From a virus: a stretch of 50,608 nt of DNA. Both the position numbers and the translations under genes were made by a program. The notes below the pieces were generated by a model. It had not been told where the DNA came from. It made no database searches and saw nothing but the letters and a program-made list of their open reading frames with translations. Every line of letters begins with the position of its first letter. The first letter of the stretch is position 1. Positions 33,555 through 45,010 of the stretch are shown one piece after another. The stretch covers positions 1 through 50,608 of the IMG/VR virus record IMGVR_UViG_3300048597_000651. One strand, written 5' to 3'.

Positions 33555-33893
33555 TCATTCGCCCCCGCGCACTGCGTTGCGCCGCATCGCATCGCGCAAA
33601 ACCGTCGGCGCCCACGCCGGCACGAACGTCGAGTGCTTGGCCTTCGGCGTCACCACCGTCATCTCGATCAGCCGGCCCTGCTGGACGCCCCACTTGAGGG
33701 CCAGCGTGATCGTCGCCCCGCGCGTCAGCCCCGTCGCCGCCTGCAACTCGTTGTAGGTGGGCGGACGGCAATGCTCCACATACAGCCGCTCATAGGTCGC
33801 CAGCAGGTGCAGCCGGCGCGCCGTTGACTGCGTCTTCGTCGTAATCTTCCGTGCGCTTGTCGTCATCGTTGTTGCCATCGTCGTTGTCGCCAC
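33555..33893 (-). CDS. Winged-helix DNA-binding protein, about 112 aa
   Basis: The core YERLYVEHCRPPTYNELQAA and TGLTRGATITLALKWGVQQG match a winged helix like the LexA N-terminal domain. The N-terminal Thr/Met-rich stretch overlaps the upstream zinc-ribbon gene; the real start may be an internal ATG (33878 or 33866). It probably regulates the replication/membrane operon in which it lies. Confidence 0.6.
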   Translation of the reverse strand: MATTTMATTMTTSARKITTKTQSTARRLHLLATYERLYVEHCRPPTYNELQAATGLTRGATITLALKWGVQQGRLIEMTVVTPKAKHSTFVPAWAPTVLRDAMRRNAVRGGE

Positions 33894-34080: not shown

Positions 34081-35142
34081 CTACATCGACCGCTCCTGTG
34101 ATCGCTCCTGTTCTTCCCGCCGGCGCTTCTCCTCGCGCTCGACTGCCTCAGCCTCTTTGCGCGCCCGCTCGGATTCGGTATACACCGCCTGCGAGCGACG
34201 AAACGTTCTGCCATTTGCCATCTGCCGCTCGGCCTGTTTACGTTCGCGTTCTGCGCGCTGTTTGAGTGTGTCGTCGGCACTCTCTGCCGGTTGCGCCGGC
34301 GGCATCTCGAACAGCACCATCTGGCCGGTTTCGGCATATTCCTCAAGGATGCAGATGCCGACCGCCGTCACACTGCGCACCAGCCCGACCCGCTGCCGTG
34401 CCGCCGTTGATTCCTGCGCCCGTCGCAAATCGGCCAGAATTTCCTCTGTCCGCTCGACCGTAAAATGCTTCGCGGCCAGCGCGACAATCGCGTCACACAA
34501 CACCTGGCGCTTGCGTCCGGCGATGCCAAACTCGTAAATCACCGCCAGCACGCGCTTGCGGAAATCCGCCAGAAGCTCGAAGCGCGCCGTCCCCTCAAGA
34601 GGATTCACAAAGTTCACAAAGTTCATGCCAGCAGCAGCTTGCATGCTGCTTGCTTGATTAACTTCTGTAGTACGTACATGTACTGATTCAGAGCAGATTT
34701 CGCGTGAACTTTGTGAACTTTGTGAACTTTGTGAACTTTGAGCCACGCCTAAACATGAACTTTGTGAACTTTGTGAACTTTGTGGATTTACAAAGTTCAC
34801 AAAGTTCATGCTGTTTTGCACATCGTTTTGCGCAATGTTTCCCACGTCCGGGGCAACCGGAAGTTCACCCGTCGGGGCAACCGACATGAGCTGCGCGCCG
34901 CCTGCGCGCAACAGGTGAACCGTCGTGGCACTTTGCTTGTTTTGCTTGCGGCTGATCCAGCCGCCGGCTTCCAGTTCCTGCATCCAACGCACGACCAGCG
35001 GGTAGGCGCAACTCAGCGCCTTCGCCAGATCGGCATTTCGTGTGGTGAGCGCATCGCCACCGGCGTGCTGCCGCAGCCGGTCGTAGAAACGCTGCGCCTT
35101 CTCGCTCGGTTTCTCGCACGGTTTTGCGTTGTCGTGTGTCAA
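34081..35142 (-). CDS. Replication initiator-like protein carrying internal iterons, 353 aa
   Basis: Residues 1-80 hold a winged-helix region (FYDRLRQHAGGDALTTRNAD, LAKALSCAYPLVVRWMQELEAGGWISR). The middle (about 110-180) is an unusual linker of NFVNFVN and SQSSQSSQSS runs encoded by the iterons described separately. A second folded region follows (FELLADFRKRVLAVIYEFGI, VLCDAIVALAAKHFTVERTE), and the end is a very basic coiled coil (RERKQAERQMANGRTFRRSQ). This layout, with origin repeats inside the gene, resembles phage/plasmid initiators such as lambda O. Start is TTG 35142, with no ATG alternative near. Function is inferred. Confidence 0.6.
   Translation of the reverse strand: MTHDNAKPCEKPSEKAQRFYDRLRQHAGGDALTTRNADLAKALSCAYPLVVRWMQELEAGGWISRKQNKQSATTVHLLRAGGAQLMSVAPTGELPVAPDVGNIAQNDVQNSMNFVNFVNPQSSQSSQSSCLGVAQSSQSSQSSQSSREICSESVHVRTTEVNQASSMQAAAGMNFVNFVNPLEGTARFELLADFRKRVLAVIYEFGIAGRKRQVLCDAIVALAAKHFTVERTEEILADLRRAQESTAARQRVGLVRSVTAVGICILEEYAETGQMVLFEMPPAQPAESADDTLKQRAERERKQAERQMANGRTFRRSQAVYTESERARKEAEAVEREEKRRREEQERSQERSM
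34604..34809. repeat. Iterons: 11 copies of GTGAACTTT in two orientations (putative origin)
   Basis: Two inverted copies (TTCACAAAG) at 34604-34621, four direct copies GTGAACTTT at 34704-34739, three direct copies at 34755-34781 (the first ATGAACTTT), and two inverted copies at 34792-34809. A degenerate unit, GTGGATTTA, at 34782-34790 partly resembles a DnaA box. Between the first two groups lie the inverted repeats AGCAGC/GCTGCT and AGTAC/GTACT. The repeats code for NFV in one orientation and SQS in the other, so DNA, not protein, appears to be what is conserved. Confidence 0.85.
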
Positions 35143-35184: not shown

Positions 35185-35213
35185 TTGACACGCCCCGCAA
35201 CATGCTGTAATGT
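35185..35213 (+). promoter_or_regulatory. Promoter TTGACA-N17-TAATGT for a small RNA
   Basis: TTGACA (35185-35190), 17 bases, TAATGT (35208-35213) form a strong plus-strand promoter in a gap where both flanking genes are on the minus strand. The inverted repeat CAACAT/ATGTTG (35198-35215) overlaps the -10 box and could be an operator. The only downstream product on this strand is the short RNA ending at 35302. Confidence 0.7.
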
Positions 35214-35219
35214 TGTTGC

Positions 35220-35302
35220 GGCTGGTGTGGCATCTGTCCGCTGTGCCAGTCGTCCTACCGAACCCCAACAACCCGCCAGGTGAGAGGGGTTCGAATTTTT
35301 TT
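35220..35302 (+). ncRNA. Putative antisense RNA (~83 nt) opposite the initiator gene leader
   Basis: A transcript from about 35220 would form a first stem-loop, CTGGTGTGGC (35222-35231) with GCTGTGCCAG (35240-35249) around ATCTGTCC, and then a terminator stem CGAACCCC (35259-35266) with GGGGTTCG (35286-35293), followed by AA and seven Ts (35296-35302). Promoter, two stem-loops and terminator form a compact unit. It lies between the minus-strand gene at 35320-35688 and the initiator-like gene, so it is antisense to the initiator leader if these are co-transcribed. Such RNAs control replication initiators in many plasmids. Confidence 0.7.
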
Positions 35303-35319
35303 CCTCTAGATCGTCCTTT

Positions 35320-35688
35320 CTACGCCGGCATCAGTTCATCGATGGGCACGTAGTGCGGCTCACTTCTTCGTGCGGTGCTGCCGGCGGCCGCTTTTGGGGC
35401 CTTGCCCCGTTCGCTGCCCCGTTCGCTGCCCCGGTCGGGCAGGGGCGGCGGCTCGTTCAGGCTCAACAGCCGCGCAATCGCCAGTTGGATCAGCCGGCTG
35501 CGATCCATGCGCTGATCTGCATCCGCGATGTCCGCGTTCAGTTGCGCCAGATATTCATTCACCGCGTTATCCATCCACGCCGGCCACGAAATGCCGCGCT
35601 GCACCCGCCCAGGCGACGCCGGCGCAATCAACTGCTTCAACTCCCTCAGCACGGCCTCATTCACTGCCGCCTTGTTTGCCTCTCTCAT
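35320..35688 (-). CDS. Ribbon-helix-helix-like small regulator, 122 aa
   Basis: GGAGG precedes the ATG by 4-5 bases. The middle (ISWPAWMDNAVNEYLAQLNA, then RMDRSRLIQLAIARLLSLNE) fits a helical DNA-binding or CopG-like domain, in which SRLIQLAIARLL is the second helix. A tail rich in Glu, Arg and Ser follows (DRGSERGSERGKAPKAAA). As the first gene before the initiator, it could be the transcriptional repressor of the replication unit. Assignment to the family is tentative. Confidence 0.55.
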   Translation of the reverse strand: MREANKAAVNEAVLRELKQLIAPASPGRVQRGISWPAWMDNAVNEYLAQLNADIADADQRMDRSRLIQLAIARLLSLNEPPPLPDRGSERGSERGKAPKAAAGSTARRSEPHYVPIDELMPA

Positions 35689-35711: not shown

Positions 35712-35741
35712 ATATTAGCCTGACATATGACACTTTGTCAA
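35712..35741 (-). promoter_or_regulatory. Promoter for the leftward replication/membrane operon
   Basis: On the minus strand TTGACA (35741-35736), 18 bases, TAATAT (35717-35712). The spacer contains CATATG within TGTCATATGTCA, and the start region contains the inverted repeat TGACT-GG-AGTCA (35701-35712), both operator-like. The distance to the ATG of the 35320-35688 gene is about 24 bases. Confidence 0.75.
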
Positions 35742-36939: not shown

Positions 36940-37836
36940 TTAACTCACCTCGTGTTCGACATTATTATCCTTCAAGAATCCAATCAGTGTTGCGGCGTGC
37001 ACGCCCCATCCGACATGCATGAAACTGTGCGCCGTATCCCTCATTGTTCCTCCATCTTTGATCTGATAATTGAATCCCAACGGATAGTGTCTCGTCTGTG
37101 TTTGAATGCCCCAAATCCTGCCTTCTGCATCGAATATCGGGCCGCCACTTTGGCCTTTCAAACCCGGGCTAGATGTCTCGATATACGCTAGATCAAAGTC
37201 GAATTTCGGCGGCGGTATTCCCGCAGCCTCTTCGCGCAGCTTGATATTAATTATCCGCGTAAGTATGCCCTCGTTTGGGAACATTGGGAGTGGCGCCGAC
37301 AAGTTGAATGTCTCTTTTCCCTCATCGAATGTGGGTTGCACCTCACTAAATGGAAATCCAAGCCGGCACAGGCTGGTGCCATTGTCGAAATCAACAGTGG
37401 GATTCTTGATTTTGGGATATCCATGAATCATTGATGCATCAAATGGCGTCAATTGTCCCACCGCCAAGTCCATCAACGGGAAACTCCGAATGTCTACCAG
37501 TTGGCAATTGGGCAACCCGTAAAACAAAGAAAGCTTCCTCGGCGCATCTGCACCCGGGTCGGCTAACGCCATTTTGCGTCGGCGCTTGTCTTTGTCTTTT
37601 ATGCCAGCGTCAGCATCGATCTCGCTGCACTGTTGTTCATACGCATGCAGATCGCGTGAAGATCGCATCAGTTCATCGGCAGTTTTAAGAATGTGGGCGG
37701 CAGTGACAAACCATCCATCCCTGTTTATGACGACGCCAGTTCCAATGATTGAGTTGACATTTCTGTTTCGCGTCCAAATGGAAATGACGATTGGCAAAGT
37801 GAATAGGCGTGCAATTTTGTAGGCTTTGGCAAACAC
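36940..37836 (-). CDS. Trypsin-like serine protease, 298 aa
   Basis: The chymotrypsin-fold triad is visible: His48 in GWFVTAAHILK, Asp123 in FPLMDLAVGQL, and Ser230 in GLKGQSGGPIF. A preceding motif IGTGVVINRDG is typical. No clear signal peptide is seen (the first 20 residues are only weakly hydrophobic), so it probably acts inside the cell. The gene is AT-richer than its surroundings and has almost no GCCGGC sites, suggesting recent acquisition. Trypsin-like proteases occur as effectors in several bacterial anti-phage systems, so a defence role carried by the prophage is possible. An ordinary housekeeping HtrA-like protease is less likely because no PDZ domain is present. Confidence 0.8.
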   Translation of the reverse strand: MFAKAYKIARLFTLPIVISIWTRNRNVNSIIGTGVVINRDGWFVTAAHILKTADELMRSSRDLHAYEQQCSEIDADAGIKDKDKRRRKMALADPGADAPRKLSLFYGLPNCQLVDIRSFPLMDLAVGQLTPFDASMIHGYPKIKNPTVDFDNGTSLCRLGFPFSEVQPTFDEGKETFNLSAPLPMFPNEGILTRIINIKLREEAAGIPPPKFDFDLAYIETSSPGLKGQSGGPIFDAEGRIWGIQTQTRHYPLGFNYQIKDGGTMRDTAHSFMHVGWGVHAATLIGFLKDNNVEHEVS

Positions 37837-37866: not shown

Positions 37867-38235
37867 TCACCGTCCAATCCAGCACCGCACGCCGCCATGC
37901 CGGCTGCACGTCCCGCTGCCGGTCGATGTGCTCGACGAGCCGTCGTTGCAGATCGCGCCCACGCGCGTTGTGCCGGTGCTGCCCGCGCACCACGGGATGC
38001 CGCCAGGCGGGTTGGGTGGCTGAGGATTGGTCGTGGGTGCCAACGTCGGCGCCGGCGTCAATGTTGGCGCGATGGTCGGTGAGGCTGTCGGCGATGGCGT
38101 GATCGCCGGCGCATCGCGCCGCACAACGGGCAGAAAAGAAACGGGCCGCAACCCGTCGGCGCTCGCCGGCCAGGCGGCCGCCAGCGCAATGCTCATGCAC
38201 GCCAGTGCGAGCACAGCAAAAATACGTTGCTTCAT
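37867..38235 (-). CDS. Secreted Thr/Pro-rich protein with DUF3761-like end, 122 aa
   Basis: A signal peptide (KQRIFAVLALACMSIALAAAWPASA) is followed by SFLPVVRRDAPA, a Thr/Pro-rich spacer with TPSPTASPTIAPTLTP repeats, and a C-terminal TTRVGAICNDGSSSTSTGSG then TCSRHGGVRCW. The last part resembles DUF3761 (CNDGT...SGTCSxHGGV). It would be secreted or lie at the surface. A lysogenic-conversion gene is a reasonable guess. Confidence 0.68.
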   Translation of the reverse strand: MKQRIFAVLALACMSIALAAAWPASADGLRPVSFLPVVRRDAPAITPSPTASPTIAPTLTPAPTLAPTTNPQPPNPPGGIPWCAGSTGTTRVGAICNDGSSSTSTGSGTCSRHGGVRCWIGR

Positions 38236-43634: not shown

Positions 43635-43976
43635 ATGGCGCGCAACATGAGCTTCATGCTTACCGCGCAGCAGGTGCTCGCCGGCACGAAGGACGTGACA
43701 CGCCGGCACGGCTGGTGGAATCTCAAGCCAGGCGACCCGCTCAATGCCGTCGAGAAGGGTATGGGGCTGAAGCGCGGGCAGAAGATCGTCAAGCTGCGCC
43801 GCATCGAAGTCGTCTCGATTCGCCACGAGCGACTGGACGCCATCACGCCGGCGGACGTGTGCCGCGAAGGATTCCCTGAAATGACGCCCTTGCAGTTCAT
43901 CGAGATGTTCTGCAAAACGCATCAGGGTTGCACGCCGGCCACCATCATCAATCGCATCGAGTTCAAATATCTATGA
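43635..43976 (+). CDS. ASCH-domain protein, 113 aa
   Basis: The motifs LTAQQVLAGTKDVTRRHGWW and GDPLNAVEKGMGLKRGQKIV, and the end TPLQFIEMFCKTHQGC with NRIEFKYL, fit the ASCH fold (a PUA-like beta barrel) common in phages. ASCH proteins bind or process modified nucleosides or RNA; the exact role of the phage forms is unclear. It overlaps the following ATPase by ATGA. Confidence 0.75.
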   Translation: MARNMSFMLTAQQVLAGTKDVTRRHGWWNLKPGDPLNAVEKGMGLKRGQKIVKLRRIEVVSIRHERLDAITPADVCREGFPEMTPLQFIEMFCKTHQGCTPATIINRIEFKYL

Positions 43977-45010
43977 ACACACCATCGACCGACATTCGCA
44001 CTCGCGTTGACGACGCCTTCGCCGGCTTCATCGGCAACACGCCGGCGGTGTATGCCATCAAGCGCAGTCTGCGCGTCGCGCTCTCGCACACTCCGGCGCG
44101 CATGGATCGCGTGTTTCTGTTTGTCGGCGGCCCGTCGCTGGGCAAGACGACGATAGCGAAGCGCACCGCAAGCGCGCTCGGCCTGCCGTTCCTCCAACTC
44201 GACGGCACAGCGATCAAAACCCGCGAGCAACTGTTCGACGCGCTTGAAGACATGCTCGTTGATGGCGGCCTGCCAACAAAGCGGGTGGGTGAGCGCAGCG
44301 GCATGCCGATGATCGAGTATCCGCCCTGCGCCATCTTTATCGACGAGATTCACACGCTGGGCGCCGGCGTCCAGAACGCGCTGCTCACCGCGCTCGAAGC
44401 GAGCGACCGCAGTGTCGTATTGAGCCGCGCCGGCGTGCGTCGTGTGGCGCTGGTCGGCAACGTGCTGTTCATGTTCGCCACCACGAAGCAGGGACTGCTC
44501 GACGATGCATTCCGCTCGCGCTGCACCGAGATTCTGTTGCAGCCATATTCGCAGTCGGAGATCGAAGAAATGGTGCGGCTGAACTACGCCGGCTTGCCGG
44601 CTGAGGCCGTGCCGCTGGTCGCTCGCGCATCGCGTCTCGTGCCGCGACGGGCGTTTATGCTCGCGCGCGATGTGTCTGAGGAGATCGCCGACACGGGCAA
44701 GCCGGTCGAAACGTGCTTCGCGCACGTCATGTATGGTCTCGGCATCGTCAGCCGCAATGGCCTGACGCATGATGATCTCGCATACCTCAACGCGCTAGTG
44801 AATGAGCGCCGGCCGCTGGGCGAGCGCGTCATCATCGCATCGCTAGAGGGCATCGAATCCGAGCGCGTGCGCGATGAGATCGAGCCGTATCTGAAGCGGC
44901 TCGGCTACATCAAGCTCGCCAAAGACGGGCGCGTCATCACACCCGACGGCCTTGATGCGCACACCCGCATCAAGGCGCGCCTGGCCGAACTGCCGCTGGG
45001 AGTGAACTGA
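43973..45010 (+). CDS. RuvB-like AAA+ ATPase, 345 aa
   Basis: Start at ATG 43973, overlapping the previous stop. Walker A is GGPSLGKTT (residues 52-60), Walker B IFIDEIH (121-127), a sensor-like FMFATTKQGLLDDA and the arginine finger region FRSRCTEILL follow. The C-terminal winged helix reads YLKRLGYIKLAKDGRVITPD, as in RuvB. These features make a Holliday-junction-type helicase motor the best guess; length is near that of RuvB (about 335-350). No ruvA or ruvC is present in the window. It may drive phage recombination or replication fork remodelling, possibly with the host RuvA. Confidence 0.8.
   Translation: MNTPSTDIRTRVDDAFAGFIGNTPAVYAIKRSLRVALSHTPARMDRVFLFVGGPSLGKTTIAKRTASALGLPFLQLDGTAIKTREQLFDALEDMLVDGGLPTKRVGERSGMPMIEYPPCAIFIDEIHTLGAGVQNALLTALEASDRSVVLSRAGVRRVALVGNVLFMFATTKQGLLDDAFRSRCTEILLQPYSQSEIEEMVRLNYAGLPAEAVPLVARASRLVPRRAFMLARDVSEEIADTGKPVETCFAHVMYGLGIVSRNGLTHDDLAYLNALVNERRPLGERVIIASLEGIESERVRDEIEPYLKRLGYIKLAKDGRVITPDGLDAHTRIKARLAELPLGVN

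Follow-up and report, generated by a model that had tools for sequence, protein, structure and literature searches.

What is encoded in the gap between the first gene and the initiator-like gene of a phage early operon, and what would its product do there? The window (the whole stretch of DNA analysed) is a 50,608-bp virus record, IMG/VR IMGVR_UViG_3300048597_000651. Judged by its terminase, portal, tape-measure, integrase and repressor-like genes the virus is a temperate tailed phage, and its terminase is only distantly related to those of known phages. A first-pass annotation had proposed that the gap yields a plus-strand RNA with its own promoter, two stem-loops and a terminator. We find these elements as follows.

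35185-35213, plus strand: small-RNA promoter, with a perfect -35 TTGACA (35185-35190), a 17-bp spacer and the -10 TAATGT (35208-35213)
35197-35219, symmetrical: dyad GCAACA-N11-TGTTGC, spanning the spacer, the -10 and the start region of the small-RNA promoter
35218-35303, plus strand: predicted small RNA of about 83-86 nt, its start deduced from the -10 and its end placed at U7
35218-35253, plus strand: 5′ hairpin of 14 pairs, 6 of the 14 being G-U, with the loop AUCUGUCC at 35232-35239
35253-35258, plus strand: single-stranded linker UCCUAC, predicted to be unpaired from 35254
35259-35302, plus strand: intrinsic terminator, with the hairpin CGAACCCC/GGGGTTCG at 35259-35293, then AA and T7 (U7) at 35296-35302

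The terminator with its U7 tract, as annotated, was confirmed from the sequence. The description of the promoter as near-consensus was too strong: the perfect -35 and the 17-bp spacing stand, but the -10 retains only three of the six consensus bases, and a generic promoter scan did not list this promoter. The dyad is a candidate operator; it occurs only once in the window, and likewise in the scanned stretches of the relatives. The 86-nt RNA (35218-35303) has a predicted fold of -36.2 kcal/mol, with a z-score of about -3.4 to -3.65 against shuffled sequences, and its 5′ hairpin is predicted at -18.0 kcal/mol on the plus strand versus -8.6 on the opposite strand. This G-U bias, the orientation of the promoter and the presence of the T-run on one side only point to a plus-strand RNA as the product of the segment. 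By a criterion of our own definition, a perfect -35 promoter with a strong terminator 40-130 nt further on, the cassette is unique in the 50.6-kb window on both strands, and 100 dinucleotide shuffles yielded no such combination. As to a shared small peptide, none of the frames that begin at a start codon within the RNA is common to the relatives; a 47-aa ATG frame (35210-35353) begins upstream of the small RNA.

Three further uncultivated phages, here designated L002, L133 and L205, carry the same cassette in the corresponding place of the operon. The RNA had been said to face two minus-strand genes, and both are present as open reading frames (34081-35142 and 35320-35688). The features surrounding the cassette are listed below.

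35712-35741, minus strand: leftward-operon promoter, TTGACA-18-TAATAT with the dyad GACA-N3-TGTC; conserved in L002 and L205
35320-35688, minus strand: gene of 122 aa that opens the leftward early operon, its product ribbon-helix-helix-like by eye
34081-35142, minus strand: initiator-like gene with a TTG start; winged helix, disordered linker and helical C-terminus in the predicted structure
34604-34808, within the initiator-like gene: 9-bp iteron array, nine copies of GTGAACTTT plus inverted copies
33555-33893, minus strand: small winged-helix-like gene downstream of the initiator, with syntenic relatives in L002, L133 and L205
38355-38771, minus strand: phage repressor-like HTH gene (PHROG transcriptional repressor, E 3e-4), with relatives in L002 and L205

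The dyad of the operon promoter lies over the -35 and has one site each in the window, L002 and L205 when the operon strand is scanned; it differs from the small-RNA promoter's dyad and is likely an early operator. When the gap separating the first gene from the initiator gene was scanned for consensus signals, no further promoter or terminator turned up on the minus strand, and for this reason the operon mRNA should run through the gap. The RNA is antisense to this intercistronic stretch, which bears out the annotated complementarity to the leader before the initiator-like gene. In the window the RNA ends 16 nt from the stop codon of the first gene and starts 75 nt from the initiator start. 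The corresponding distances are 1 and 68 nt in L002, 59 and 61 nt in L133, and 2 and about 53 nt in L205, so that the initiator start is 52-75 nt away across the four phages.

The product of the first gene could be assigned by resemblance only. The RHH_1 match of its family was weak (E 1.2, in one of three members), a fold search with the model of the 122-aa protein returned nothing significant, and no match to the cII family was found. The structural model of the initiator (m22c3bf061bf9; mean pLDDT 62.5) places a disordered stretch over the iterons, and its fold search gave a general winged-helix resemblance, with no match below E 0.001. The protein is 45% identical to the initiator of L205, which in turn matches the PHROG replication initiation/O-like families. 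The iteron array is the probable replication origin, encoding at the same time the disordered linker of the initiator; the initiator genes of L205, L133 and L002 also contain direct repeats.

The three relatives were reached by different routes. A protein search with the 122-aa gene gave L002 as the sole relative, with the same promoter and RNA in the gap behind the gene. L133 was found with a DNA pattern derived from the promoters of the window and L002. L205 was reached by a protein search with the downstream winged-helix gene, independently of the RNA, and the cassette was present in its gap. The length of the RNA is 85-87 nt in all four phages, and each of the four copies folds better than its shuffles (z -2.4 to -3.4). 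A leave-one-out covariance model trained on the window, L002 and L133 and run over 211 kb ranked the L205 copy (E 7.8e-5) first among the matches outside its training set. On this comparative evidence the cassette is real and conserved, the recurrence in three other phages being the decisive evidence.

The pattern of conservation is of note. TTGACA and a spacing of 16-17 bp are kept in all three relatives, with TATTCT (L002), TAGATT (L133) and TACAAT (L205) as the -10. The promoter dyad is present in all four phages, and the L205 version, GCAAG..CTTGC, is a paired change on both sides. The first-pass annotation had named a lack of conserved stems in relatives as grounds for abandoning the RNA; the stems persist in L002, L133 and L205. 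The terminator stems across the four phages (GAACCCC, GAACCC, CCGCTGAC and AGTCCG) are all paired, and the stem is kept in L133 and L205 despite a quite different sequence. The G-U strand bias of the 5′ hairpin recurs in L002 and L133, while the L205 hairpin has neither G-U pairs nor bias. In the four-row alignment 88% of the pairs are standard, compared to 28-47% in slid controls, and four pairs are changed on both sides, although a strong covariation signal would take more than four sequences. Invariant in all four phages are the UGYCC loop and the UCCUA linker, while the stems and the terminators diverge. As judged from this alignment, the sequence conservation of loop and linker is greater than a purely cis-acting antisense RNA needs.

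The genes on either side of the RNA have been exchanged. The four phages have three kinds of initiator (O-like, replisome-organiser and DnaD-like) and two kinds of first gene. The first genes of the window (122 aa), L002 (105 aa) and L205 (about 102 aa) encode related proteins, and that of L133 encodes an Xre protein. In L002 the initiator is a replisome organiser, with Phage_rep_org_N matched above cut-off, and the next gene weakly resembles the G39P loader, below cut-off; the L133 initiator is a DnaD-like protein, followed by a DnaC/IstB-like ATPase. As the neighbours differ in this way, the RNA element appears to be kept for itself, and its persistence beside unrelated initiators indicates that it is not tied to one particular initiator gene.

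Viral and genome collections were scanned by exact patterns or by protein, and four sequences in all were obtained. The pattern GCATCTGNCCGCTGNGC in viral contigs gave the known relative alone among the 119 stretches listed. Looser dyad patterns in viral and genome contigs returned the known copies only, the other matches being attributed to chance from their context. L125, a candidate relative of the 122-aa protein, was rejected as a 16-residue chance match. The host phylum that we sampled is a guess from secreted-protein motifs, taken from a Dehalococcoidia contig. Covariance model R1 found in 400 genomes of this phylum a single weak match, L216 (25.5 bits), which was rejected because its neighbours, argG- and atpF-like genes, mark the gap as a housekeeping one, and the initiator alignment gave in 301 genomes of the phylum weak winged-helix matches only, without the RNA. 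Two sets of promoter-like sites from the dyad scans are recorded in their own right. In two Microvirga species (genomes L174, L179, L187, L195 and L196) several near-identical sites combine a GCAAC..GTTGC dyad with a hairpin behind it (CTGACGAGGGGCGCGCTCGCGAGGCGTCAG) and perhaps represent a repeat or a multicopy small RNA. One phage, IMGVR_UViG_3300025018_001404 (L152 and L153), has two promoter-like sites with a GCAAC..GGTTGC dyad, without the remainder of the RNA.

What, then, is the function of this RNA? The segment probably encodes a phage antisense RNA that works like the OOP RNA of lambda, a reading in which we have moderate confidence. Support comes from the same cassette, operon position and constant length in four phages; from the detection by the leave-one-out model of the L205 copy, on a contig reached by way of a protein; from the stability of the folds, with G-U strand bias in three of the four; and from the gene order shared with lambda, in which oop lies between cII and O and the iterons are inside O. 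In lambda, OOP RNA causes cII mRNA to be lost in an RNase III-dependent manner, the cuts falling outside the coding sequence of cII (PMC5869508), and the promoter pO has been assigned a convergent-promoter role at the origin (PMC3985674). The first-pass annotation had called such a layout unusual in a phage. That judgement was wrong, since the layout is that of lambda cII-oop-O: lambda OOP RNA occupies exactly this position (PMC3985674, PMC5869508), and a counterpart of OOP is also annotated in prophage BTP1 (PMC7067206).

The likeness extends to several particulars. In all four phages the antisense unit lies between an early regulator gene and the initiator gene. It has its own promoter, a 5′ hairpin, a linker and a terminator, at 85-87 nt compared to 77 nt in lambda. 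The iterons are in the initiator gene, although by family search the O-like initiator is that of L205, those of L133 and L002 being of other types. The differences are equally specific. Lambda oop overlaps cII by 55 bases, whereas the RNA here stops before the upstream gene; it starts 10 nt from the initiator in lambda and 52-75 nt from it here; the upstream gene is cII in lambda and a 122-aa-type or Xre protein here; and the promoter dyad is not that of lambda. As to the LexA site of the lambda promoter, what is seen here is a dyad over the -10, whose protein may or may not be a LexA. Covariance models R1 and R2 did not report the lambda region (L208) at E values up to 10, and Rfam gave no family match in the window, the best weak match being rnk_pseudo at 14.9 bits versus a threshold of 55. 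By these searches the RNA is homologous neither to lambda OOP nor to any Rfam family. It is a probable counterpart of the classic OOP RNA by position and design.

We propose the following mechanism. The promoter at 35741 would drive the leftward operon, consisting of the 122-aa gene, the gap, and the initiator gene with the origin inside it. The convergent promoter in the gap would cross this operon to give the 83-86-nt RNA, ending just past the stop codon of the first gene. The RNA may pair with the intercistronic part of the operon mRNA, pairing being initiated at the UGYCC loop and the UCCUA linker, and a double-strand RNase would then cut the duplex, lowering mainly the first (regulatory) gene. 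Polymerase firing from the small-RNA promoter may also reduce read-through into the initiator and the origin. The difference between the small-RNA dyad and the early-promoter dyad would allow another regulator to time the RNA. Most likely, then, the RNA limits early-operon expression by duplex formation, by convergent transcription, or by both. Four observations stand against an OOP-like function: a gap of 1-59 nt separates the RNA from the upstream coding sequence, the first gene has no recognisable cII identity, the conserved loop and linker are unneeded by a purely cis-acting antisense RNA, and the -10 in the window is poor.

The first-pass annotation had compared the locus to plasmid copy control, in which the first gene would repress the operon and the RNA would chiefly block initiator synthesis, as does RNAII of pMV158. 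We regard this as unlikely. The comparison is apt in that pMV158 has the order copG-RNAII-repB, an operon in which the promoter and a small regulator gene come first, then the antisense RNA and then the initiator gene (PMC4485353), and in the ribbon-helix-helix appearance of the 122-aa protein. It fails in other respects. RNAII adjoins the translation signals of repB (PMC4485353), whereas the RNA in all four phages ends 52-75 nt before the initiator start. The ribbon-helix-helix resemblance reaches an RHH_1 E value of 1.2 in one of three family members, and L133 has an Xre protein in its place. The phage encodes an integrase, and the RNA is kept beside unrelated initiators. RNAII itself, at 48 nt, consists of one hairpin and a single-stranded 5′ tail, compared to the two hairpins of the RNA here, which lies further from the initiator start and in an integrating phage. 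A role of the linker as an anti-Shine-Dalgarno sequence at the initiator start fitted L002 and L133 by eye, but not the window, and was dropped.

It is also unlikely that the RNA is a by-product of a promoter that itself matters, by transcribing convergently close to the origin and so regulating read-through or origin activation. The same case has been made for lambda pO (PMC3985674), and the promoter and its dyad are among the best-conserved parts of the cassette. The conserved RNA length, the strand-biased hairpin, the loop, the linker and the terminator would, however, all be superfluous. A new phage RNA family that is independent of its neighbours, with the loop and linker acting on a shared host or phage RNA or protein and the antisense position being only part of its role, is likewise unlikely. 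It is improbable that the small RNA acts in trans or binds a protein, its loop and linker contacting a shared partner of phage or host origin. The invariance of loop and linker beside diverging stems and terminators would be accommodated, but no shared target was found among the gene starts of the four phages, and with only four sequences common ancestry may account for part of the invariance. The promoter dyad and several inverted repeats could also belong to a DNA element (an operator, a cruciform or a replication site) that merely resembles a gene, to which the correctly spaced promoter, the one-sided T-run and G-U pairs of use to the RNA strand alone leave hardly any probability. Other phage-encoded antisense regulators (P22 sar and sas, lambda aQ, c4 RNA) differ from the RNA here in their positions and targets (antirepressor, sieB, immunity functions).

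Returning to the OOP-like function, the literature that we found describes no such control beyond the lambdoid phages of enteric bacteria. Here an RNA unrelated in sequence occupies the same slot and is kept through exchange of both the initiator and the first gene. This suggests that temperate phages make repeated use of an antisense promoter between an early regulator and an origin-bearing initiator, and that such a promoter is not a peculiarity of lambda. The RNA family and the comparative data bear on the unsettled question for lambda pO of whether the RNA or the promoter is decisive, and other phages can be searched for the same image, a gap ahead of the initiator that holds a convergent promoter and a terminator.

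Three further genes of the window are of note. In three phages a gene adjoining the repressor encodes a small protein of one family, secreted in appearance, with a signal-like start, an SYLPIV motif and a Pro/Thr-rich spacer (window 37867-38235, minus strand; L002 7212-7610; L205 4610-4984). Beside the repressor cluster lies a trypsin-like protease gene (36940-37836, minus strand; Pfam Trypsin_2), possibly an accessory gene expressed in lysogeny. A RuvB-like ATPase gene (43928-45010, plus strand), with AAA, RuvB_N and RuvB_C above cut-off, would encode a phage-borne branch-migration motor, and the stretch that holds it is 78-83% identical to relatives.
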